Part shown: positions 1,874-14,963 of the stretch, piece by piece | How the letters are laid out: each line of letters begins with the position of its first letter | How positions within the stretch are numbered: position 1 is the first letter of the stretch | Source: Chryseobacterium taiwanense | Lineage (GTDB): Bacteria > Bacteroidota > Bacteroidia > Flavobacteriales > Weeksellaceae | Length of the DNA: 64,000 bases | NCBI RefSeq assembly: GCF_000813825.1 | Contig: NZ_JWTA01000004.1 | Span: forward strand, 310,001 to 374,000 | Direction of reading: 5' to 3' | Translations under genes and position numbers: made by a program | Notes under the pieces: generated by a model | What the model saw: the letters and a program-made list of their open reading frames with translations, nothing else | What the model was told of the DNA's origin: nothing | Databases searched by the model: none

Positions 1874-4800
1874 CTACATCGTTTCCATCTTAAAACTCAT
1901 GCTTTCAATCACTTTCAGGATCGCTTCAACCGTATCCATTGATGTTAAACAAGGAACACCGTTTTCAACACTCATTCTTCTGATCTGGAAACCGTCTCTT
2001 TCAGCCTGTTTTCCTTTGGTAGTCGTGTTGACAACGTACTGAACTTTTCCTTTCTGGATCAAGTCGATCAGATTTACATCTTCCTCTCCTATTTTGTATC
2101 CTATTTTGCAAGGAATTCCTTTTTCTTCGAAGAATTTTGCAGTTCCTTCTGTAGCCCAGATTCTGAAACCAACTTCATGGAATCTTGATGCTAAATCAGC
2201 TGCTTCCTGCTTGTGTTTATCTGCTACTGTGAACAAGATCGATCCGTGCATCGGAACTTTTCTTCCTGCTGCAACCAATCCTTTGTAAAGTGCTTTTTCT
2301 AGCGTTGTGTCTTTACCCATAACCTCTCCTGTAGACTTCATTTCTGGGCCTAAAGAGATGTCAACTTTCGTTAATTTAGAGAAAGAGAACACAGGAACTT
2401 TTACGAAAACACCTTCTTTATTTGGAACCAATCCGTTTTTGTATCCTAAATCTGTCAGTTTTTGACCTAAAATTGCTTTTGTAGCCAAATTTGCCATTGG
2501 AACATCCGTGATTTTAGACAAGAAAGGAACTGTTCTCGATGAACGTGGATTTACCTCGATTACATATACATTTCCTTCGAAAAGTACATATTGAATATTC
2601 ATTAATCCAATCACATTCAATCCTTTAGCTAATCTTTGAGTATAATCTACCAAAGTCTCAACTTCACTTTGTGAAATATTCTGTGGAGGATACACTGCAA
2701 TTGAGTCTCCGGAGTGAACTCCCGCTCTTTCGATGTGCTCCATAATTCCAGGAATGATTACCGTTTCACCGTCGCAGATCGCATCAACTTCTATTTCTTT
2801 TCCAACCATGTATCTGTCGACCAAAACCGGATGTTCCGGACTTGCATCTACTGCAAATTCCATATAGTGAGCCAATTCGCTTTCTGAGTATACAATTTCC
2901 ATTGCTCTACCTCCCAAAACATAACTTGGGCGAACCAATACAGGATAACCGATTTCGTTAGCGATTTTTATGGCTTCTTCTTTCGAAGTTGAAGTTTTTC
3001 CTAAAGGCTGAGGAATTCCCATTTCCTGAAGGGCTTTTTCAAACTTATCTCTGTTTTCAGCTCTGTCTAGATCTTCCAAAGAAGTTCCTAAAATCTGAAC
3101 TCCGTGAGAAGCTAATTTATCTGCCAAATTGATTGCAGTCTGTCCTCCGAACTGTACTACAACACCTTTTGGTTTTTCCAATTCGATGATGTTCATCACA
3201 TCTTCTTCTGTTAGAGGCTCGAAGTATAATTTATCTGAAATTGAGAAGTCTGTAGAAACTGTTTCAGGGTTGTTGTTGATGATAATCGCTTCGTACCCCA
3301 TCTCTTTGATTGCCCAAACTGAGTGAACTGTTGCGTAATCAAACTCAACTCCCTGTCCGATTCTGATTGGTCCAGAACCTAGAACGATGATTTTTTCTTT
3401 ATCAGAAGCAACACTTTCGTTTTCTTCTTCATACGTTCCGTAGAAATAAGGGGTTTCAGATTCGAATTCAGCAGCACAAGTATCTACCATTTTGTATACC
3501 GGCATTACTCCATTTTCTTTTCTGAAATTGAAAACTTCACGCTCAGTCACATCCCAAAGAACTGCGATGTTTACATCTGCGAAACCTAGTTTTTTAGCTT
3601 CTAAAACAATTTCTTTGTTAAATTTGTTTTCAGCGATAACTTTTTCGAAGTCAATTAATTTCTTGATTTTCCAGATGAAGAATTTATCGATTTTGCTCCA
3701 CTCTACGATTTGTTCCCAGTCGTACCCTCTTCTTAAAGCATCTCCAATGATGAACAATCTTTCGTCATCACAAACTCTGATTCTTCTTTCGATTTCTTCT
3801 GCCGTTAAAGCTGCAGCCTGCTTAGTTTTTAAACCGATATGTTTAATCCCAGTTTCAAGAGAACGGATTGCTTTTTGTAAAGACTCTTCAAAATTTCTTC
3901 CAATCGCCATTACTTCACCCGTTGCTTTCATCTGAGTTGATAATCTTCTGTCCGCTGTTTCGAACTTATCGAATGGGAATCTTGGGAATTTAGTTACCAC
4001 ATAGTCCAAAGCTGGTTCGAAACAAGCGTAAGTCTTTCCAGTAACTGGGTTCATGATTTCATCAAGTGTTAATCCTACCGCAATTTTAGCAGCGATTTTA
4101 GCAATCGGATATCCTGTTGCTTTTGATGCTAAAGCTGATGAACGGGAAACTCTTGGGTTTACCTCGATGATATAATAGTTGAATGAGTGTGGATCTAACG
4201 CTAACTGTACGTTACATCCCCCTTCGATTCCTAATGCTCTGATGATTTTTAATGAAGCGTTTCTCAATAACTGATACTCTCTGTCTGAAAGCGTTTGAGA
4301 AGGCGCAACAACGATTGAATCTCCTGTGTGAACTCCAACCGGATCGATATTTTCCATGTTACAAACCACAATCGCGTTGTCGTTTGCATCACGCATTACT
4401 TCGTATTCAATTTCTTTGAAACCTGCAATTGATCTTTCGATCAAACATTGCGTAACAGGACTATGTTTTAGTCCTAATTCAGCAATTTCTTTCAATTCAG
4501 CCTCTGTGGAAGCAATTCCACCACCTGTTCCTCCCATTGTGAAGGCAGGACGAACAATTACAGGATACCCGATTTCGTTAGCAAAATTTAATGCTCCTTC
4601 AACGGTATTTACGATATCTGATTCTGGAACTGGCTCGTTTAATTCTCTCATCAGTTCACGGAACAAATCTCTGTCTTCCGCTCTGTTGATTGCTGAAAGT
4701 TTTGTTCCCAATACTTCAACTTTACATTCTTCAAGAATTCCTGATTTTTCCAATTCTACTGCCATATTCAGGCCAGTCTGTCCTCCCAAAGTTGGTAAAA

Positions 4801-5056
4801 GCGCATCCGGACGCTCTTTTCTGATAATATGACTTACAAACTGTAATGAAATCGGCTCGATGTATACTTTATCTGCGATTTCAACATCCGTCATAATCGT
4901 TGCAGGATTTGAGTTGATCAAAATTACCTTGTAGCCTTCTTCTCTCAAAGACAAACAAGCCTGCGTTCCTGCGTAATCAAATTCCGCCGCCTGACCAATG
5001 ATGATAGGTCCTGAACCGATTACTAAAATTGTTTTTATATCTGTACGTTTTGCCAT
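1874..5056 (-). CDS. carB: Carbamoyl-phosphate synthase large subunit
   Basis: A 1060-residue protein with the full CarB architecture: two homologous ATP-grasp halves (roughly residues 1-400 and 555-935), an oligomerisation region between them, and a C-terminal MGS-like allosteric domain (about 940-1060). Diagnostic segments are [19 protein letters not shown] at the N-terminus, its counterpart [18 protein letters not shown] in the second half, [13 protein letters not shown] and [10 protein letters not shown]. It makes carbamoyl phosphate from bicarbonate, ATP and ammonia delivered by CarA. It is third in the pyrB-carA-carB operon and ends at a strong terminator. The product also supplies the neighbouring arginine operon. 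Confidence 0.98.
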
Positions 5057-5189: not shown

Positions 5190-6263
5190 TTACTTTTTGA
5201 AGTTTTCCATTAATTCAATGAACTCATCAAATAAGTAGTTTGCATCTTCTGGACCTGGACTTGCTTCCGGGTGATACTGAACTGAGAAACAAGGGTGAAT
5301 TTTGTGTTTCAAACCTTCGTTTGTTCTGTCGTTCAATGCGATGTGCGTTTCAATTAAATCTGTTCCCTTTAAACTCTCTTGGTCAACTGCATAACCGTGG
5401 TTTTGAGAAGTAATTGCCACTTTATTTTTCTCTAAATCCAACACCGGATGGTTTCCTCCTCTGTGTCCGAATTTTAATTTGAAAGTTTTAGCTCCACAAG
5501 CCAAACCGATCAATTGGTGTCCTAAACAGATTCCGAAAATTGGAACTTTTCCTAGAATTCCTCTGATCATTTCCAGCGCGTGTTGGTTATCTTCAGGATC
5601 TCCAGGACCGTTTGACAACATGACTCCGTCCGGATTCATCAACAAAATTTCTTCTGCCGTTACATCCTGAGAAACTACCGTAATATCACAGTTTCTCTGA
5701 GACAATTCTCTGATAATTCCCAACTTAGAACCAAAGTCTACCAATACTACTTTCAAACCTCTTCCCGGATTTGCATAAGGAGTTTTTGTAGAAACCTGCT
5801 CCACCTGATTGGTAGGAAAGTTTGTTGATTTTAATTCTGCAACTACTGTACTTTCGTCAGCATCAGCGTTTACAATTTTCCCTTTCACCACTCCGTAGTT
5901 ACGAAGAATTCTTGTCAGTCTTCTTGTATCGATTCCTGAAATTCCTGAAAGGTTTTTCCTTTTAAATAATTCATCTAAAGTAATCTGAGTACGGAAATTT
6001 GAAGGCAAATCACAAAGCTCTTTTACAATAAGACCTTTGATAGCCGGCTCAATACTCTCATAATCATCTCTATTAATCCCATAGTTCCCGATTAATGGAT
6101 AGGTCATACACACAATCTGACCGCAATAAGACGGGTCAGAAATCAGTTCTTGATACCCTGTCATTCCGGTATTGAAAACTACTTCTCCTGCAGTTTCCAA
6201 TTCTGTTCCGAAACCTTCTCCATGAAACACTTCACCGGACTCCAGTATTAACTTTTTCTTCAT
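5190..6263 (-). CDS. carA: Carbamoyl-phosphate synthase small (glutaminase) subunit
   Basis: A 357-residue protein with the N-terminal CPSase small-chain domain (ESGEVFHGEGFG, NTGMTGYQE, SDPSYCGQIV) and a C-terminal class I glutamine amidotransferase domain. The nucleophile Cys is in GICLGHQLIG and the His/Glu pair in QYHPEASPGP. It hydrolyses glutamine and channels ammonia to CarB. It lies between pyrB and carB on the same strand, with repeat-containing gaps of about 130-175 bases on each side, so all three are probably one transcription unit. Length and motifs are normal. Confidence 0.98.
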   Translation of the reverse strand: MKKKLILESGEVFHGEGFGTELETAGEVVFNTGMTGYQELISDPSYCGQIVCMTYPLIGNYGINRDDYESIEPAIKGLIVKELCDLPSNFRTQITLDELFKRKNLSGISGIDTRRLTRILRNYGVVKGKIVNADADESTVVAELKSTNFPTNQVEQVSTKTPYANPGRGLKVVLVDFGSKLGIIRELSQRNCDITVVSQDVTAEEILLMNPDGVMLSNGPGDPEDNQHALEMIRGILGKVPIFGICLGHQLIGLACGAKTFKLKFGHRGGNHPVLDLEKNKVAITSQNHGYAVDQESLKGTDLIETHIALNDRTNEGLKHKIHPCFSVQYHPEASPGPEDANYLFDEFIELMENFKK

Positions 6264-6437: not shown

Positions 6438-7328
6438 TTACTTAAAAGTATACCCTTCTTTCTCTAAGGCCTCTTTCAAGATTGCCATTCTTGCGAAAAC
6501 ACCGTTCTGCATTTGCTTGAATACTCTTGAACGTTCACATTCAACTAAGTCTGTATCAATTTCAACTCCTCTGTTGATAGGAGCTGGGTGCATGATGATC
6601 GCTTCTTTTTTCATTGCTTTTTCTCTTTCTTTCGTCAAACCATATTTCCTGTGGTAATCTGAAGCTGAGAAACTCATTTTTGCATCGTGTCTTTCGTGTT
6701 GGATTCTTAGCAACATTAACACATCAACTTCTGCAATTAATTCATCAACACTTAAATAGGTTCCGTTGATTAATGCTCCTTCATCAAACCAGTCTTCAGG
6801 TCCTGAGAAATATACTTTTGCACCTAATCTTCTTAATGCTTCTGCATTTGAATTGGCAACTCGGCTGTGTTTTACATCTCCTACAATTCCTACTTTTAAG
6901 CCTTCAAATTTTCCGAATTCCTGATAAATCGTCATCAAATCTAGCATACATTGAGAAGGATGGTTTCCCGTTCCGTCTCCTCCGTTGATTACAGGAATTT
7001 TAATCTGCTCCAATTCATCAAAATATCTGTCTTTTTTATCTCTGATTACAACAAGATTCACTCCAAGACTTTCAAGCGTTCTTACCGTATCGTAAAGGCT
7101 TTCACCTTTGTTTACCGAACTGTGAGAAGCGTCAAAAGGAACTACCTGTAATCCTAATTTTCTCTCGGCAATATCAAAACTTGTTTTCGTTCTTGTACTG
7201 TCTTCAAAGAAAAGATTTGAGCAAAAAACTTCCCCTTCAATTTTAGCAGTTTTCCCATTCGCAAAAGCCAAGGCTTCTGTTACTATACTGTTGATTCTCT
7301 CGGTGCTTAGTTCTGTAATTGTAAACAT
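6438..7328 (-). CDS. pyrB: Aspartate carbamoyltransferase catalytic subunit
   Basis: A 296-residue transcarbamylase that condenses carbamoyl phosphate with aspartate, the first committed step of pyrimidine synthesis. The carbamoyl-phosphate loop [12 protein letters not shown] is near residue 45; [18 protein letters not shown] carries the His-Pro-x-Gln element, and [11 protein letters not shown] is the C-terminal phosphate/aspartate loop (more often HPGPVNRG). It lacks any adjacent pyrI, so it probably works as a simple catalytic trimer. It is first in the operon and follows a leader ORF and attenuator-like terminator 18-50 bases upstream, suggesting control by attenuation. Confidence 0.96.
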
Positions 7329-7346
7329 AATATCTTAATTTTTTAC

Positions 7347-7376
7347 AAAAAAAAAGCGAAGAAAATATCTTCGCTT
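7347..7376 (-). terminator. Attenuator-like terminator just before pyrB
   Basis: On the minus strand an 8 bp stem, AAGCGAAG / CTTCGCTT, around a 7-base loop is followed directly by nine T. It starts one base after the stop codon of the 22-codon leader ORF and ends about 18 bases before the pyrB ATG. No gene upstream would need this as an ordinary terminator, because the only upstream sequence is the pyr promoter and leader. It is therefore best read as an intrinsic attenuator. Confidence 0.8.
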
Positions 7377-7377
7377 A

Positions 7378-7446
7378 CTATAAATAAATATCGTAAAGGG
7401 CGTCTACGCCCGGTAATTCTAATGATATAAATACTGTGTTATTCAT
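7378..7446 (-). CDS. Putative pyr leader peptide (22 aa)
   Basis: A 22-codon ORF begins MNNTVFISLELPG and ends DALYDIYL. Its ATG lies only six bases after a TATCTTTG promoter box, so the transcript is nearly or fully leaderless. The stop codon ends one base before the attenuator stem. A ribosome finishing this ORF would cover the 5' arm of the terminator hairpin and prevent it from forming. The arrangement matches the logic of the enterobacterial pyrBI leader, although the peptide itself is unrelated. No codon run for a particular amino acid is present, which argues against amino-acid-type attenuation. Inferred from layout only. Confidence 0.6.
   Translation of the reverse strand: MNNTVFISLELPGVDALYDIYL
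7398..7411 (-). promoter_or_regulatory. Possible RNA polymerase pause hairpin in pyr leader
   Basis: GGGCGT and ACGCCC form a 6 bp GC-only-rich stem inside the leader ORF. It is followed in the transcript by a U-rich stretch (CUUUACGAUAUUUAUUUAUAG, in two halves around GAU) before the terminator. In pyrBI-type leaders a pause hairpin followed by U-rich sequence makes polymerase speed depend on UTP. The role here is inferred. Confidence 0.5.
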
Positions 7447-7452
7447 TAGGTG

Positions 7453-7484
7453 CAAAGATACAACAATTTTACAAACTGACAAAA
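7453..7484 (-). promoter_or_regulatory. Promoter of the pyr operon
   Basis: On the minus strand TTTTG (complement of 7480-7484) and TATCTTTG (complement of 7453-7460) are separated by 19 bases, which fits the Bacteroidota promoter consensus TTG-N17-23-TAnnTTTG. Transcription should start near 7447-7449, at or just before the leader ATG. Confidence 0.72.
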
Positions 7485-7570: not shown

Positions 7571-8032
7571 ATGGATTTAAAAGACAGAATGATTCTCAGC
7601 ATAATTCAGGAAGACTCCACTTTATCTGTAAAAGAAATTTCAGAAAAGATTGGTCTTACCTTTACTCCAACCTATGAAAGAATCAAGCAATTGGAGAAAA
7701 ACGGAATTATTGAGAAATATGTAGGTCTTTTAAACCGTGAAAAACTGGGTCTGAATATCGTTGTTTATTGCAATGTCCGCCTAAAAGAGCAATCTCAGAA
7801 AGTTTTGGAAACATTTGAGAAAAACATTGGTAAACACGATGAAGTTCAAGAAATCATTAGTCTTTCCGGCGAATACGACTATATGTTGAAGATCATTGCA
7901 AAGGATATTAATTCTTATAATGAATTCGCCGTAAATGTGATTTCAAACATTCCTAATATCGGACAATACCACAGTTCTATCGTGCTTCACGAAGTAAAAA
8001 AATCTACTAAGTTTAAGATTGATTTGGATTAA
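7571..8032 (+). CDS. Lrp/AsnC-family transcriptional regulator
   Basis: A 153-residue protein with an N-terminal winged HTH (about residues 1-60; LSVKEISEKIGLTFTPTYERIKQLEKNGII is the helix-turn-helix region, here in overview) and a C-terminal ligand-binding RAM domain with the SGEYDYMLKI strand. Lrp/AsnC proteins form octamers or dimers and sense amino acids or other small molecules. It is divergent from the pyr operon with about 90 bases between promoter boxes and lies near the arginine genes, so control of either is possible but unproven. It differs from the common Lrp/AsnC form in having Thr-Pro-Thr at the recognition-helix start. Confidence 0.92.
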   Translation: MDLKDRMILSIIQEDSTLSVKEISEKIGLTFTPTYERIKQLEKNGIIEKYVGLLNREKLGLNIVVYCNVRLKEQSQKVLETFEKNIGKHDEVQEIISLSGEYDYMLKIIAKDINSYNEFAVNVISNIPNIGQYHSSIVLHEVKKSTKFKIDLD

Positions 8033-9066: not shown

Positions 9067-10371
9067 TCAACCCAATAATTTATTTTTCAGTTTATTAAAC
9101 TGATATTCTATCTTATCCAGACACAAATTCCCGATACTTCCCTGATGGGTATGATTCAGATTTCCAATTTCAAAATCAAACTCATTATTTTCAATCTCCT
9201 GTCCCACTTTTATATAAGCATCACGGAATGAACTTCCATTTTTCACTTCTTCATTAATTTTCTCTACGCTGAAAAGATATTTATATTTTTCATCTTCAAG
9301 AATTCCATCTTTCACCTGAATATTTGGTAACGTGTAATTTAAAATTTCCAGACATTCTTTTAAAGAATCAATTGCCGGGAAAAGAATTTCTTTCGTCAAT
9401 TGCATATCTCGGTGATAGCCTGAAGGAAGATTGTTCGTCAACAAAATAAACTCATTCGGCAATGACTGAATTCTGTTGCAACGCGCACGAACCAATTCGA
9501 AAATATCCGGATTTTTCTTGTGAGGCATAATGCTACTTCCCGTTGTAAATTCTTTAGGAAAACTGATAAAATCAAAATTTTGACTTAAATACAGACAAAC
9601 ATCGTAAGAAAATTTACCCAACGTTCCCGCCAAAGTTGCCATTGCCATCGACAACATTTTTTCTGACTTTCCACGCGTCATCTGAGCATATACTGAATTA
9701 TAATTCATGGACTGGAAACCTAAATTATACGTCGTACTCTCACGATCAATCGGGAAAGAAGAACCGTAACCTGCCGCCGAACCCAGCGGATTTTTATTAA
9801 TGATATTTTTAACCGAAAACAACATTTCAACATCATCCAGCAACGCTTCTGCATATGCTCCAAACCACAATCCAAATGAGGAAGGCATTGCAATCTGTAA
9901 ATGGGTATATCCCGGAAGCAAAACATTTTTATGTTGTTCCGCTAATTTGATCAATATCTGAAAAAATTCATCCGTTAATGCGGTAATTTCACGGATTTCA
10001 TCCACTAAATATAATTTAATATCTAATAAAACCTGATCATTACGTGATCTTGCGGTATGTATTTTCTTTCCTGTATCACCTAATTTTTCAATTAAAATAG
10101 ATTCCACCTGCGAATGAATATCTTCCGCATTTTTATCAATTTCAAAAGTTCCGTTTTCGATATCTTCTAAAATTTCTGCCAAAACAGATAGCATCTGCTT
10201 TGATTCTTCATTGGAAATAATTCCAACTTCTGCCAACATTTTACAGTGCGCCATCGAACCTTTAACATCGTATTTCGCCAAACGCTCATCAAAGTCGAGA
10301 TCCTTCCCGACTGTAAATTGATTAACTAATATATTGGTGGCATTATCGTCTTTCTGCCATATTTTTTTCAT
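9067..10371 (-). CDS. argH: Argininosuccinate lyase
   Basis: A 434-residue member of the fumarase/aspartase superfamily. The signature loop GSSIMPHKKNPD carries the catalytic region, and HTARSRNDQVLLD and LPGYTHLQIAMPSSFG are the other conserved blocks. It splits argininosuccinate into arginine and fumarate, the last step of arginine synthesis. It is the distal gene of the minus-strand arginine operon, about 400 bases after argE', a gap that contains a repeat and a possible small gene. Confidence 0.97.
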   Translation of the reverse strand: MKKIWQKDDNATNILVNQFTVGKDLDFDERLAKYDVKGSMAHCKMLAEVGIISNEESKQMLSVLAEILEDIENGTFEIDKNAEDIHSQVESILIEKLGDTGKKIHTARSRNDQVLLDIKLYLVDEIREITALTDEFFQILIKLAEQHKNVLLPGYTHLQIAMPSSFGLWFGAYAEALLDDVEMLFSVKNIINKNPLGSAAGYGSSFPIDRESTTYNLGFQSMNYNSVYAQMTRGKSEKMLSMAMATLAGTLGKFSYDVCLYLSQNFDFISFPKEFTTGSSIMPHKKNPDIFELVRARCNRIQSLPNEFILLTNNLPSGYHRDMQLTKEILFPAIDSLKECLEILNYTLPNIQVKDGILEDEKYKYLFSVEKINEEVKNGSSFRDAYIKVGQEIENNEFDFEIGNLNHTHQGSIGNLCLDKIEYQFNKLKNKLLG

Positions 10372-10393
10372 ATTCTTTCTTTAAAAATTTAAT

Positions 10394-10489
10394 CTATTTT
10401 GACAACTCAGCAGAACCCATTTCTATTTCTGCAACTTTAAACATTTCCACATTTTTAAAGTCTTTCATTTTTAACATTAATTCTTGCAT
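10394..10489 (-). CDS. Possible 31-aa small protein between argE' and argH
   Basis: A small frame of 31 codons with an ATG start begins MQELMLKMKDFKNVEMFKV and ends EMGSAELSK. It lies 23 bases upstream of argH and downstream of the repeat. It is amphipathic, with alternating Met/Leu/Phe/Val and Lys/Glu, and the first four residues equal those of ArgE' (MQEL). It could be a small operon protein, a translational coupler for argH or chance. Evidence is only an uninterrupted frame and position. Confidence 0.3.
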   Translation of the reverse strand: MQELMLKMKDFKNVEMFKVAEIEMGSAELSK

Positions 10490-10570
10490 AAATCTTTATT
10501 AAAAACATTCAAACTCCATCGCCTGCTGAGTAAGGTCAAAACAGTAAAAAACTAACTATTTTTTCTAAAT

Positions 10571-10740
10571 TTCTTTTGTCTTAAAACAAAAATTCAAGAC
10601 TTGGAAATTCCGGCTAAAAATTATTTCTGTTCTCTAAAAATTCTAAAACTTGCGCGAATTCAGCAATTGGTTTTTCATCTCAATATTTATTGCGCGCTTC
10701 AAACAGAAGAATTTTCTTAACACCTACATTTCCTAGGTCG
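10571..10740. repeat. Dispersed repeat, copy A (argE'-argH gap)
   Basis: About 170 bases that align with 14762-14963 in the same orientation. Shared blocks include TTCAAGACTTGGAAA, TGTTCTCTAAAAATTC followed by TAAAACTTGCGCGAA, GCGCGCTTCAAACAG (TCGCGCTTCAAACAG in copy B), and AGAATTTTCTTAAC. Compared with copy B it lacks about 11 bases near the left end. It contains no ORF or transposase and looks like a non-autonomous intergenic element of this genus. Confidence 0.85.
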
Positions 10741-10771
10741 GTTTACAAGTCTCCATCATCAAACTTCCAGC

Positions 10772-11854
10772 TTATAAAACTTTCTCCAGAATCTTGATGT
10801 AAATCTCAATTCCCTCCGCAATTTCTTCAATGAAAATAAATTCATCTGCGGTATGAGAACGCCTACTGTCTCCAGGACCTAGCTTAACAGAGGTACAAGG
10901 AATAATCGCCTGATCGGATGAAGTGGGTGAACCGTAAGTTGTCCTGCCTATTTCTAATCCTGCCTGTACAAATGGATGTTCCATTTCTATTTTTGATGAA
11001 TTTAGCCTGAAAGATCTCGCCGTTAAAGTTGATTTCATCTGTGATTGGATGATTTCAAAGGCTTCTTTATTAGAATATTCATCAGTAACTCTTACATCTA
11101 AAGTAAAAGCACAGGATTCCGGAACGACATTATGCTGAACTCCGGCATGAATCCCTGAAAGTGTAACTTTAACCTCACCTAAATAATCCGAAACTTTTGG
11201 AAATTTGAAGTTTAAGATATTCTGGAGATCTTCCATACATTTCACAATCGAATTATCATTATTCGGATGAGCAGCGTGAGAAGGAGTGCCTTTCATTTCT
11301 CCATCAATAACCAAAAGTCCTTTTTCCGCAATCGCTAAATTCATCTGCGTTGGTTCTCCTACAATAGCAAGCTCCACATTCGGAAGCTGTGGAAATAAAG
11401 CTTCGATCCCGTCAAACCCTGAAATCTCCTCCTCTGCCGTCAAAGCAATAACTAAATTATATTGTAAATCTTCTTTATCATAAAAATGTAAAAAAACCTG
11501 CGCCATCGAAACCAAAGAAGCTCCTGCATCGTTACTTCCCAATCCGAATAATTTCCCGTCTTTTTCAATCGGTAAAAAAGGATCCAGCGTGTAAGCTTTA
11601 TTCGGTTTTACGGTATCATGATGCGTATTCAGCAAAATCGACGGTTTGAAAACATCAAAGTTTTTATTTACTGCCCAGATGTTATTTTTAAAACGTTTGG
11701 TAGGAATCTGATGTTTTTTGAAAAAATTTTCAATCTCCACAGACGTATTAAATTCATCTTTGCTGAATGACGGAATTTCAATCAGTTTTTTCAACAATTC
11801 CACTGCATTATTTAGCAATTCTTCTTTACTATAAACAGATTTCAGTTCCTGCAT
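10772..11854 (-). CDS. M20-family N-acyl-ornithine deacylase (ArgE-like)
   Basis: A 360-residue M20 metallopeptidase. Metal-binding and catalytic elements are NTHHDTV (His78, Asp80), GSNDAGA (Asp109) and TAEEEISG (Glu141/Glu142), with the dimerisation domain in the middle. In this operon it should remove the acyl group from N-acyl-citrulline or N-acyl-ornithine. With an N-succinylornithine-type transcarbamylase next door, the likely substrate is an acylated citrulline, and the acyl group is probably succinyl. Its first 26 bases overlap the end of argB, so translation is probably coupled. I leave the symbol blank because the substrate is inferred. Confidence 0.88.
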   Translation of the reverse strand: MQELKSVYSKEELLNNAVELLKKLIEIPSFSKDEFNTSVEIENFFKKHQIPTKRFKNNIWAVNKNFDVFKPSILLNTHHDTVKPNKAYTLDPFLPIEKDGKLFGLGSNDAGASLVSMAQVFLHFYDKEDLQYNLVIALTAEEEISGFDGIEALFPQLPNVELAIVGEPTQMNLAIAEKGLLVIDGEMKGTPSHAAHPNNDNSIVKCMEDLQNILNFKFPKVSDYLGEVKVTLSGIHAGVQHNVVPESCAFTLDVRVTDEYSNKEAFEIIQSQMKSTLTARSFRLNSSKIEMEHPFVQAGLEIGRTTYGSPTSSDQAIIPCTSVKLGPGDSRRSHTADEFIFIEEIAEGIEIYIKILEKVL

Positions 11855-12623
11855 GATGGTTTTCTATGTGGTTTTTTAGTTCGGTTTCTTTGATTAAGAA
11901 TACCTTATTTACATTATTTTTTACTGCTCCAAGAGCATTTTCCAACTTGGGAAGAATTCCTTTGTGAAGTTTTCCTTCGTCTTTTAAGGTTGAAAATTCT
12001 TCTTCTGAAATATTTTTGATAGTAGATTCCGGATTATTCACATCTTCCAAAACGCCATCTTTATCAAAGCAATACAATAATTCCACATCATATTTTATTG
12101 ATAATGCCTGTGCAATTACCGAAGCAATCGTATCTGCATTGGTATTGAAAAGATGTCCTTTTTTATCGTGAGTAATCGCTGAAAATACTGGAACCAACCC
12201 AAGTTTAAGTAGCTTTGAGATGATTTTTTTATTGATACTTTTCTCCGTAATATCTCCTACAAATCCAAAATCAATCTCCTCATCTTCTCTTTTTGTTGCT
12301 TTAATTAAATTAGCATCTGCACCGGAAAAACCTATAGCTTTACACTTCTTTTGCTGAAGCTTTGCCACAATATTTTTGTTGATCCCTCCTGCATACACCA
12401 TTGCTACAATATCCAAAGTATCTTTATCGGTGATTCTTCGTCCATTCACCAGCTTTTGCTTAATTCCCAATTTATCCGCTAAAGTCGTCGCTAATTTCCC
12501 ACCACCATGAACAAGAATTTTCTTTTCCTGAATTTCAGAAAACTGCTCCAGAAATTGCTCTAATAATTCTTCATCATCAATCAAAGCACCTCCTATTTTT
12601 ATGACGAAAAGCTTTTCTTGCAT
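11829..12623 (-). CDS. argB: Acetylglutamate (or succinylglutamate) kinase
   Basis: A 264-residue amino acid kinase. The N-terminal KIGGALIDD and VHGGGK loops bind phosphate, and FNTNADTIASVIAQAL is the ATP-side helix. It phosphorylates the gamma-carboxyl of N-acylglutamate. It starts directly with the kinase fold and lacks the N-terminal helix found in arginine-inhibited family members, so it is probably not inhibited by arginine (inference). Seven bases separate it from argF' and it overlaps argE'. Given the pathway context the acyl group may be succinyl. Confidence 0.95.
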   Translation of the reverse strand: MQEKLFVIKIGGALIDDEELLEQFLEQFSEIQEKKILVHGGGKLATTLADKLGIKQKLVNGRRITDKDTLDIVAMVYAGGINKNIVAKLQQKKCKAIGFSGADANLIKATKREDEEIDFGFVGDITEKSINKKIISKLLKLGLVPVFSAITHDKKGHLFNTNADTIASVIAQALSIKYDVELLYCFDKDGVLEDVNNPESTIKNISEEEFSTLKDEGKLHKGILPKLENALGAVKNNVNKVFLIKETELKNHIENHHAGTEICL

Positions 12624-12630
12624 GATTTGA

Positions 12631-13590
12631 TTATTTTGAATTAATTTCTTCTAAAATTTCAGAGAAAACTGCCTGAGCTGAGAAAATTCGGTTTTTCGCC
12701 TGCTGATAAATAATAGAATTACCACCATCCATCACTTCATCACTCAATTCCACATTTCGACGAACCGGAAGACAGTGCATTACTTTTGCATTGTTAGTAT
12801 TTTCCAACTTTTCATTTGTCAACATCCAGTTTTCTTTTACTTCCGGCATTGCCGCATAATCATCAAAAGACGACCAGTTTTTCACATAGATAAAATCTGC
12901 ATCTTTCAGTGCTTCATCCTGATCGTGGATTACTTTTACATTTTTTGTGAAGTTTTTATCTAAATCATACCCTTCAGGGTTTGTGATCACAAAATCCACA
13001 TCCATTTCCTGCATCCATTCTGCAAAAGAATTTCCCACTGCATGAGCAATAGGCTTGATGTGAGGCGCCCAAGTTAAAACCACTTTCGGCTTACGTTCTT
13101 CTTTCCAGTTTTCGGTAATCGTGATGCAATCTGCCAAACTCTGTAAAGGATGACGTGTTGCAGATTCTAAAGAAATAACCGGAACTTTTGCATGTTGCTC
13201 GAACTGGCTTAAAATGCTTTCATTAACATCATCTTCTTTGCTTTTCATTCCTGCAAAACAACGAACCGCGATGATATCACAGTATTGATTTAATACTTCA
13301 ATAGCGTCTTTGATATGCTCAACCGTATCGCCGTTCATCACAGCACCATCTGCAAACTCCAAATTCCATGCTTCCTGAGCTGCATTTAAAGTTAACACAT
13401 TTAAACCTAAGTTCTGCGCTGCAATCTGACTACTTAAACGGGTTCTCAAACTTGAATTTAAAAATACAAGTCCAATGGTTTTTCCTTTTCCCTTCCCGGT
13501 TTCCGAAAGAGGGTCTACTTTAATTTGTAAAGCCTTTTTTATAATTTCCTGCAAGTTTTCAACATCACTTACAGAGGTGAATTTTTTCAT
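12631..13590 (-). CDS. argF': N-succinylornithine-type carbamoyltransferase
   Basis: A 319-residue transcarbamylase that, from the start MKKFTSVSDV, aligns without gaps through the first 100 residues with the Bacteroides fragilis succinylornithine enzyme as I remember it. NSSLRTRLSSQ is the carbamoyl-phosphate loop and MHCLPVRRN the C-terminal loop. The discriminating residue 90 is Pro in the Bacteroides enzyme and the equivalent is Glu in acetylornithine carbamoyltransferase; here it is Val (NGDTVEHI). Absence of Glu favours succinyl- over acetylornithine. It consumes carbamoyl phosphate from the neighbouring carAB. It lies eight bases from argB and 12 from argD. Confidence 0.9.
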   Translation of the reverse strand: MKKFTSVSDVENLQEIIKKALQIKVDPLSETGKGKGKTIGLVFLNSSLRTRLSSQIAAQNLGLNVLTLNAAQEAWNLEFADGAVMNGDTVEHIKDAIEVLNQYCDIIAVRCFAGMKSKEDDVNESILSQFEQHAKVPVISLESATRHPLQSLADCITITENWKEERKPKVVLTWAPHIKPIAHAVGNSFAEWMQEMDVDFVITNPEGYDLDKNFTKNVKVIHDQDEALKDADFIYVKNWSSFDDYAAMPEVKENWMLTNEKLENTNNAKVMHCLPVRRNVELSDEVMDGGNSIIYQQAKNRIFSAQAVFSEILEEINSK

Positions 13591-13601
13591 TTTGAATTGA
13601 T

Positions 13602-14741
13602 TTAAAGATTTTCTAAAACAGTTTTTAAAGCACTGATAAATACATCAGTTTCTTCTTTTTTAATGTTAAGTGCCGGAAGAATCCTCAACACAGCCTTATC
13701 ATTAGAGTTTCCTGTGAAAATATGATGATCGTACAACAGTTTATTTCTCACTTCTGAGCAATCCCTGTAAAGTTCAATTCCAATCATCAAACCTTTCCTT
13801 CGGATGGTTTTAATATGTGGAAAATCTTTAATTTCATTTTCAATATAAGCGCCCATTTCCTGAGCATTTTCGATGAGATTTTCATCTTTCATTACATCTA
13901 ATACAGCAATCGCCGCAACACAAGCCAAATGATTTCCTCCGAACGTTGTTCCTAATAAACCGTTACTTGCTTTAAATTTAGGGTGAATTAAAACGCCGCC
14001 AATCGGAAAACCGTTCCCCATTCCTTTTGCCGTTGTAATGATATCGGCTTCAATTCCAAATTCCTGATGGGCAAAGAAATACCCGCTTCTTCCATATCCT
14101 GACTGAACTTCATCCAAAATCAAAACAACATCATGTTTTTCACACAATTCTTTGATTTTAGTTAAAAACTCAACCGTTGGAATCATAATTCCGCCAACCC
14201 CCTGAATTCCTTCGATAATTACAGATGAAATTTCACTTCCTTGTTTTTCGAAAACTTCTTGAAGCTGTTCGATATTATTCCATTCAGATTTAATAAATCT
14301 TTCGTCATAATTTACCGGAGCTACAATTTTGGGATTATCCGTCACCGAAACCGCTGCTGAAGTTCTTCCATGAAATGAACCTGAAAAATACAATACCTTA
14401 CTTTTTCCGTTATGAAAAGAAGCCAGTTTTAAAGCATTTTCATTCGCTTCAGCGCCAGAATTACATAAAAACAAGTTGTAATCTTCCAAACCTGAAAGCT
14501 TCCCTAATTTTTCAGCTAATTCAGTTTGTAATTCGTTCTGAACCGAGTTTGAATAGAAAGATATTTTCTCTAATTGATCTTTTAATTGAGTTTGATAATG
14601 CGGATGGTTGTGACCTATAGAAATCACAGCGTGACCTCCGTAAAAATCAAGGTATTTTTCTCCTTTATCGTCCCAAAGAAATGATCCTTGAGCTTTTACC
14701 GGATTTATGTTGAATAATGGATATACGTTGAATAAATTCAT
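13602..14741 (-). CDS. argD: Acetylornithine/succinylornithine aminotransferase
   Basis: A 379-residue class III PLP aminotransferase. LILDEVQSGYGRSG binds PLP and Lys239 in TTAKGMGNGFPIGG forms the Schiff base; CNSGAEANENALKLA is the phosphate-binding region. It converts N-acylglutamate semialdehyde to N-acylornithine. I start at the ATG at 14741 (MNLFNVYPLF); the frame continues upstream to 14789, but those codons are translation of the dispersed repeat and should not be protein. Confidence 0.96.
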   Translation of the reverse strand: MNLFNVYPLFNINPVKAQGSFLWDDKGEKYLDFYGGHAVISIGHNHPHYQTQLKDQLEKISFYSNSVQNELQTELAEKLGKLSGLEDYNLFLCNSGAEANENALKLASFHNGKSKVLYFSGSFHGRTSAAVSVTDNPKIVAPVNYDERFIKSEWNNIEQLQEVFEKQGSEISSVIIEGIQGVGGIMIPTVEFLTKIKELCEKHDVVLILDEVQSGYGRSGYFFAHQEFGIEADIITTAKGMGNGFPIGGVLIHPKFKASNGLLGTTFGGNHLACVAAIAVLDVMKDENLIENAQEMGAYIENEIKDFPHIKTIRRKGLMIGIELYRDCSEVRNKLLYDHHIFTGNSNDKAVLRILPALNIKKEETDVFISALKTVLENL

Positions 14742-14761
14742 TTTTTGTTTTTTTATTATTT

Positions 14762-14963
14762 TTCTTTTGTCTTGAAACAAAAGAAACAAAAGTTCAAGAC
14801 TTGGAAACTTTCGCTAAAAAATATTTTTGTTCTCTAAAAATTCTAAAACTTGCGCGAAATCAGCATTTGTTCTTCGACTCGACTTTCGTGTCGCGCTTCA
14901 AACAGTAGAATTTTCTTAACGTTCACAAAATTATTTTTCTTAACGCTCCATTTTCCTAAGTCG
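14762..14963. repeat. Dispersed repeat, copy B (argC-argD gap)
   Basis: About 200 bases homologous to 10571-10740 in the same orientation. The left end has CTTTTGT-cttgaa-ACAAAAG, a 7 bp hairpin, and the body has TTCAAGACTTGGAAA, TGTTCTCTAAAAATTC and CGCGCTTCAAACAGTAGAA. The right end contains TCTTAACG twice (about 14912 and 14938). The remaining gap to argC is a short tandem of CAATTGAC/GACAATTCACATT. It lies inside the operon, so it is transcribed with it. Confidence 0.85.

Follow-up and report, generated by a model that had tools for sequence, protein, structure and literature searches.

A likely pyrBI-type transcription attenuator upstream of pyrB in Chryseobacterium and related Weeksellaceae

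The pyrB locus of Chryseobacterium taiwanense

The window analysed in this study is a stretch of 64,000 nt from Chryseobacterium taiwanense (GCF_000813825.1, NZ_JWTA01000004.1, positions 310,001-374,000), to which all coordinates below refer. Its minus strand carries a whole leader element that reads leftwards into pyrB-carA-carB (Table 1). In the order of transcription, this element comprises a promoter, an ATG 6 nt further on, an ORF of 22 codons with a GC hairpin inside it, an A/U-only tract, the stop codon and a terminator, after which pyrB begins. An earlier note, made from the sequence alone, had claimed this succession of a TTG-N19-TATCTTTG promoter, 22-codon ORF, GC-rich hairpin, U-rich run and stop, and it held on the minus strand, its placement included. 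The note had also described an 8 bp terminator stem one base after the stop, followed by T9; the position and the T9 were confirmed, but the stem (7376-7354) comprises 9 bp. From the terminator U run to the pyrB ATG (7328), the distance is 17 nt.

Table 1. Features of the pyrB leader and its operon, with positions in the window
Feature	Position	Strand	Remarks
TTG, -33 element of a Bacteroidota primary-sigma promoter	7480..7482	-	19 nt before TATCTTTG
TATCTTTG, -7 box (TAnnTTTG)	7453..7460	-	consensus kept in 70/70 genus elements
CACCTA between TATCTTTG and leader ATG		-	
C-T-A immediately 5' of ATG (YYA motif)	7447..7449	-	predicted start region
5'-terminal hairpin	7419..7449	-	CUAAUGA pairs with UCAUUAG; leader start codon paired
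Leader ORF, 22 codons, MNNTVFISLELPGVDALYDIYL and TAG stop	7378..7446	-	ATG 7446-7444, TAG 7380-7378
Second in-frame stop, TAA, after leader TAG	7377-7375	-	overlaps terminator stem
Pause-type hairpin GGGCG-TAGA-CGCCC	7398..7411	-	inside leader ORF
A/U-only U-rich tract ATATTTATTTA	7381..7391	-	between pause-type hairpin and leader stop
Intrinsic terminator AAGCGAAGATATTTTCTTCGCTT, then U run	7345..7376	-	-11.7 kcal/mol, z -4.6
pyrB, aspartate carbamoyltransferase catalytic subunit	6438..7328	-	NF002032, 355 bits (cut-off 263)
carA, carbamoyl-phosphate synthase small subunit	5190..6263	-	NF009475, 483 bits
carB, carbamoyl-phosphate synthase large subunit	1874..5056	-	ORF of 1060 aa; named from sequence and position

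The leader RNA folds with -25.3 kcal/mol, compared to -13.5 +/- 2.8 kcal/mol for shuffles, and because this is 4.2 to 4.4 SD below dinucleotide shuffles, the arrangement is more than chance would give. Likewise, a strict combination of features (TAnnTTTG, 4-8 nt, ATG, 12-45 codons and a stop within -4/+13 nt of a terminator stem) was searched for in a null scan of 854 kb of the C. taiwanense genome and the 64-kb window; its only match in the 1.71 Mb of strand scanned was the pyrB leader. No Rfam family was matched anywhere in the window, and a generic sigma-70 promoter scan, which is uninformative for Bacteroidota, found no excess over shuffles.

Conservation within Chryseobacterium

All 148 Chryseobacterium genomes encode pyrB, and a covariance model of the leader has exactly one match in each of them, always directly upstream of this gene (one of the matches is partial and lies on a truncated contig). 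The distance between the -7 box and the ATG is 6 nt in 70/70 extracted elements; while this distance was demanded by the extraction pattern, all 70 regions fitted it. In third codon positions, the leader has a mean pairwise difference of 0.05 and pyrB of the same genomes one of 0.33, and even the least variable 21-codon window of pyrB reaches 0.17. Therefore, it is the nucleic acid itself that is under selection. This conservation does not derive from a conserved neighbourhood, since the upstream flanks of some leaders (L008, L028, L031, L047 and L048) are wholly unlike that of L002, with the leader still being kept.

The stem of the pause hairpin is kept throughout the genus, whereas its loop varies, with free changes of codons and amino acids (GTA GAC, GAT AGC, GAC AAC and others). 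Two leaders, L047 and L048, have in-frame insertions of 3 nt, both in this loop, and a deletion of 4 nt in L007 shifts the leader stop into the terminator loop. Within the genus, just one base pair has changed on both sides; the sequence hardly varies, leaving too little covariation to establish the pairs.

Conservation across the Weeksellaceae

For a wider comparison, upstream regions were taken from the 26 pyrB-bearing genera of the family. Forty-four leaders were located through their promoter, ATG and terminator, without making an open frame a criterion, and the same architecture is found in all of them, representing 25 of the 26 genera, with differing peptide and hairpin sequences. The ATG follows TAnnTTTG, which the scan demanded, at 5-7 nt in 44/44 leaders, and the terminator stem begins 67-84 nt after the ATG. 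In every leader, the frame has no stop until 13 nt or less before this stem, compared to about 9 leaders expected from shuffles and to 2 and 12 for the other two frames. Relative to the stem start, the stop codon ends between -4 and +2 nt in 34/44 leaders, the commonest position (26/44) being 2 nt inside the stem. In another 8/44 the ORF continues into the stem or past it, and 2/44 have an ORF that ends 8 and 13 nt before it. The conservation of the ORF frame and of the stop-terminator spacing, which the earlier note had named as a check on its reading, is thus confirmed. As the leaders are phylogenetically related, p-values cannot be taken as independent tests. The idea that the terminator belongs to the upstream gene and is accompanied by a fortuitous ORF was ruled out by the frame conservation.

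The leader peptides are unrelated from genus to genus (25 genera). In most genera (e.g. L074-L111), the terminator stem AACGAAG...CTTCGTT is near-identical, unlike the hairpin and the peptide; perhaps it is kept constant by sharing its first bases with the stop codon.

In genus g17 (L107, minus strand), pyrB is divergent (~52% identity), and no short, near-leaderless ORF was found upstream of it. Judged by eye, a longer open frame seems to cross a hairpin, AAGGAGGAAAATCTCCTT, and a terminator, AAACATCTTATCATTTAAGATGTTTTTTTTT, and it is conceivable that this is an E. coli-like variant with an ORF running through the terminator. Finally, no pyrB match was obtained in 31/120 genomes of the family (e.g. 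g10, g19, g21, g28 and g29), including several genera with complete genomes. The organisms concerned could be pyrimidine auxotrophs or use another form of the enzyme.

The pause hairpin and the U-rich tract

Across the 44 family leaders, the best hairpin has an energy of -5.1 kcal/mol, compared to -1.5 kcal/mol in shuffled sequences, and its 3' end lies a median of 21 nt from the terminator stem. The support for the hairpin rests on stem changes between genera, which were found by script: the stems differ, yet remain complementary (GGGCG/CGCCC, ATGGCT/AGCCAT, TTGGCA/TGCCGA, GAGGCA/TGCCTC, TCGGA/TCCGA, CAACTCA/TGAGTTG and others). In a few leaders (L078, L080, L085 and L098), the stem is weak or missing.

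The interval between hairpin and terminator consists only of A and U in most family leaders, with a U content of 54% in the last 20 nt against 28% in the rest. Among codons able to end in U or C, the ratio of U to C is 111:7 in the tract and 129:71 in the remainder of the ORF, and this synonymous preference favours a U-rich pause tract over a requirement of the peptide. The hairpin and the U-rich tract are therefore conserved features and not the product of chance.

The start region and the 5' hairpin

In Flavobacterium psychrophilum, TAnnTTTG has been mapped at -12 to -5, and 5.5% of the mRNAs are leaderless (PMC9723704). Based on this spacing, transcription is predicted to start ~2 nt before the leader ATG, so that the mRNA would be nearly, but not strictly, leaderless. 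The suggestion of the earlier note that the ATG lies at the expected transcription start of a leaderless mRNA is thus only partly borne out. A start downstream of 7378 would have spoken against the note's reading; the predicted start lies upstream of this position, although no 5'-end data are available.

The ATG is preceded by YYA in 40/44 family leaders, without exception in 21/25 genera, but only at 8/169 promoter-like sites of the C. taiwanense genome, where A is favoured at the two pyrimidine positions (46% and 51%). A purely translational reason for this motif is unlikely, because in Flavobacterium johnsoniae the base at -3 that promotes initiation is A and not C (PMC6847099). Moreover, the leader AUG tends to be paired: in C. 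taiwanense, its pairing probability is 1.00 (0.63 in shuffles), and in the family it is 0.76 (0.45 in shuffles), with values near 1 in about 26/44 leaders. The 5' hairpin responsible for this includes the pyrimidine bases and shows compensating bases outside the AUG (CU/AG, CC/GG and UC/GA). Roughly 40% of leaders have only a weak 5' hairpin or none, yet keep the two pyrimidines. We also considered the CTAATGA...TCATTAG dyad as a DNA operator, but set this aside, given an inter-arm loop of 4 to ~17 nt between genera. Together, YYA and the 5' hairpin resemble the start-site switching of pyrC and pyrD and may hint at a second sensor, a hypothesis for which no start site has been mapped in the family.

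Distribution of PyrR

In other families of the Flavobacteriales, pyrR is the gene immediately preceding pyrB, and 20 such pyrR-pyrB loci yielded no leader of the kind described here. Two of the upstream PyrR genes were verified with 177 and 172 bits (NF003549, cut-off 138); overall, PyrR scores in these families are 97-133 bits with NF003545 and 172-177 bits with NF003549. In the Weeksellaceae themselves, 0/120 genomes score above the cut-off with either of two models, and the best hits (31 and 37 bits) are other phosphoribosyltransferases. Likewise, no PyrR was found in the C. taiwanense genome, only a hypoxanthine-type phosphoribosyltransferase, and Rfam matched no PyrR-binding RNA in the window. 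Since PyrR lies upstream of pyrB elsewhere, but is absent where the putative attenuator occurs, the two are alternative solutions within the order. The direction of the exchange, with the attenuator taking the place of PyrR and not vice versa, is our inference, made without a tree.

Proposed mechanism

We consider it likely, with a probability of about 0.74, that the leader is a pyrBI-type transcription attenuator. On the comparative level, the ORF, its frame, the coincidence of the stop or ORF end with the terminator, the hairpin, the U tract, the terminator and the mutual exclusion with PyrR are shown. An architecture that couples the ribosome to termination has strong support from comparative sequence, with translation itself being inferred from the conservation of the frame. 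UTP is the likely signal, given a U-rich tract and genes whose products make UMP, but this is inferred from anatomy and gene identity without expression data. An objection to the whole reading is that no expression, 5'-end, 3'-end or ribosome data stand behind it. The proposal of the earlier note, in which a ribosome finishing the leader blocks the terminator in a pyrBI-like manner, is supported in this sense, with translation, pausing, termination and the UTP signal remaining inferences.

In this model, RNA polymerase would start 1-3 nt before the leader AUG, or at it, and a ribosome would load on the nearly leaderless 5' end. The hairpin and the following U-rich tract would cause the polymerase to pause, for longer when UTP is scarce. 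During a long pause, the ribosome would catch up and arrive at the leader stop, right at the base of the terminator stem, where its footprint would cover the 5' arm, the terminator could not fold, and pyrB-carA-carB would be transcribed. With plentiful UTP, the polymerase would stay ahead of the ribosome, the terminator would fold, and transcription would end after ~100 nt.

The distances involved match those established in E. coli, where termination is almost lost if a stop codon precedes the terminator by a few bp, but recovers at distances beyond 27 nt (PMC4824070). Terminators no more than 100 bp into an ORF normally escape this repression, as the ribosome has not yet caught up, and in pyrBI it is the pause site that couples the ribosome, so that the early terminator does not escape (PMC4824070). 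The leaders described here have their terminator 67-84 nt after the ATG, the stop at its foot, and the hairpin and U tract before it. Tight coupling of transcription and translation is, to our knowledge, not established in Bacteroidota.

Comparison with known systems

Like the pyrBI leader (pyrL) of E. coli and Salmonella, the element lies upstream of the same gene and combines a short leader ORF, which is translated in pyrBI, with a hairpin and U-rich stretch within it and an intrinsic terminator before pyrB. However, the 44-codon ORF of E. coli pyrL extends across its terminator and stops just 3 nt short of pyrB, whereas the ORFs of the Chryseobacterium family have ~22-26 codons and usually stop at the stem; the gap between hairpin and terminator is ~47 nt in the former and ~21 nt in the latter. 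Furthermore, the Chryseobacterium leader mRNA is predicted to be nearly leaderless, without a Shine-Dalgarno sequence, and the operon is pyrB-carA-carB. The pyrBI comparison made in the earlier note thus mostly holds, but not as homology: ORF length, sequence and end point differ, and the leader would work like pyrL without being its descendant.

In Bacillus, PyrR attenuates the pyrimidine genes. Attenuation of such genes is what PyrR-controlled pyr operons would have in common with our leader, which lacks both PyrR and an Rfam-matched binding site. With pyrC and pyrD of E. coli and Salmonella (references in PMC5730371), it shares pyrimidines in the start region; a predicted 5' hairpin clearly pairs the start codon in only about 26/44 leaders, and here this hairpin would hide the leader AUG and not the ribosome site of the enzyme gene; no start site has been mapped. 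Finally, leader-peptide attenuators with short peptides have been inferred for F. psychrophilum (PMC9723704), a member of the same bacterial class, but they belong to amino-acid operons, and the passage on leader-peptide attenuation in that paper names no pyrimidine operon.

Alternative explanations

The most serious alternative, which we nevertheless regard as unlikely, is that the main sensor is the choice of the transcription start site, as in E. coli pyrC and pyrD. At high CTP/UTP, transcription would start at the pyrimidines, the longer 5' end would hide the AUG in the hairpin, the leader would remain untranslated and the terminator would form; at low pyrimidine levels, transcription would start at the A, leaving the AUG free at the 5' end for a ribosome that suppresses the terminator. 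The YYA motif (40/44 leaders against 8/169 promoter-like sites) and the pairing of the AUG (0.76 against 0.45 in shuffles, near 1 in about 26/44, with compensating bases) speak for this view. Against it, roughly 40% of leaders lack the 5' hairpin or form only a weak one, there is no mapped start in the family, and the conserved pause hairpin and U tract are left unexplained, so that start-site choice would be an added layer and not a replacement.

Three further explanations are very unlikely. First, the leader might sense translation in general, such as ribosome supply or growth rate, and not pyrimidines. The architecture requires just a translating ribosome near the terminator, and the peptide is free to change between genera, but this view does not predict the conserved hairpin, the U-rich tract with its synonymous U preference, or the restriction to pyrB in the part of the genome scanned. 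Second, in classical amino-acid attenuation, stalling at codons for a scarce amino acid would select between an antiterminator and the terminator. In its favour, a leader ORF and a terminator are present, carAB also feeds arginine synthesis, and leader-peptide attenuation has been inferred for amino-acid operons of F. psychrophilum (PMC9723704). However, the leader peptides of 25 genera, inspected by eye, contain no run of one codon and differ between genera, no antiterminator competing for the 5' arm of the terminator was found in the folds, and a ribosome stalled short of the stop would still let the terminator fold. Third, a protein or ligand might bind the RNA and control the terminator, as with PyrR or a riboswitch, the ORF being incidental. 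In agreement with this, the RNA hardly differs between members of the genus, even at third codon positions, but there is no PyrR in the family and no Rfam match, and between genera it is the reading frame that is kept and not the sequence.

A regulatory arrest peptide acting on the ribosome is likewise very unlikely: the peptide is conserved inside the genus, but this conservation acts at the nucleotide level, the variable loop alters amino acids freely, and the peptides are unrelated between genera.

Implications and further observations

Retaining the pyrBI-type attenuator as the main reading, we put forward a bolder version as a hypothesis that is no more than possible, a two-stage pyrimidine sensor within a single leader of ~100 nt. 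In the first stage, the choice of start at YYA-AUG would leave the leader AUG free or hide it in the 5' hairpin; in the second, the U-rich pause would decide if the ribosome gets to the stop in time to block the terminator. Such a system might have originated in one PyrR-less family of the Bacteroidota, and would depend on tight coupling on a nearly leaderless mRNA.

The earlier note knew of no such leader in Flavobacteriia, and we found no description in the open-access literature searched (most subscription journals were outside this scope). If the attenuator reading is true, a pyrBI-like attenuator exists outside the enterobacteria, without sequence homology and in a family whose relatives have PyrR, and would be a clear-cut example of convergent regulation. 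The element further offers a test of whether ribosomes of Bacteroidota, a phylum without Shine-Dalgarno initiation, are coupled to RNA polymerase closely enough for attenuation.

Two neighbours of the element deserve mention. A divergent regulator of the Lrp/AsnC family (window 7571-8032, plus strand; 108 bits to NF008370, under the cut-off of 233) starts ~110 nt from the pyrB promoter and is kept in several members of the genus, but not in others. Upstream of pyrB-carA-carB and in the same direction lies an arginine-type gene cluster (window 9067-14789, minus strand; names from sequence), so that the attenuator may also affect the supply of carbamoyl phosphate for arginine.
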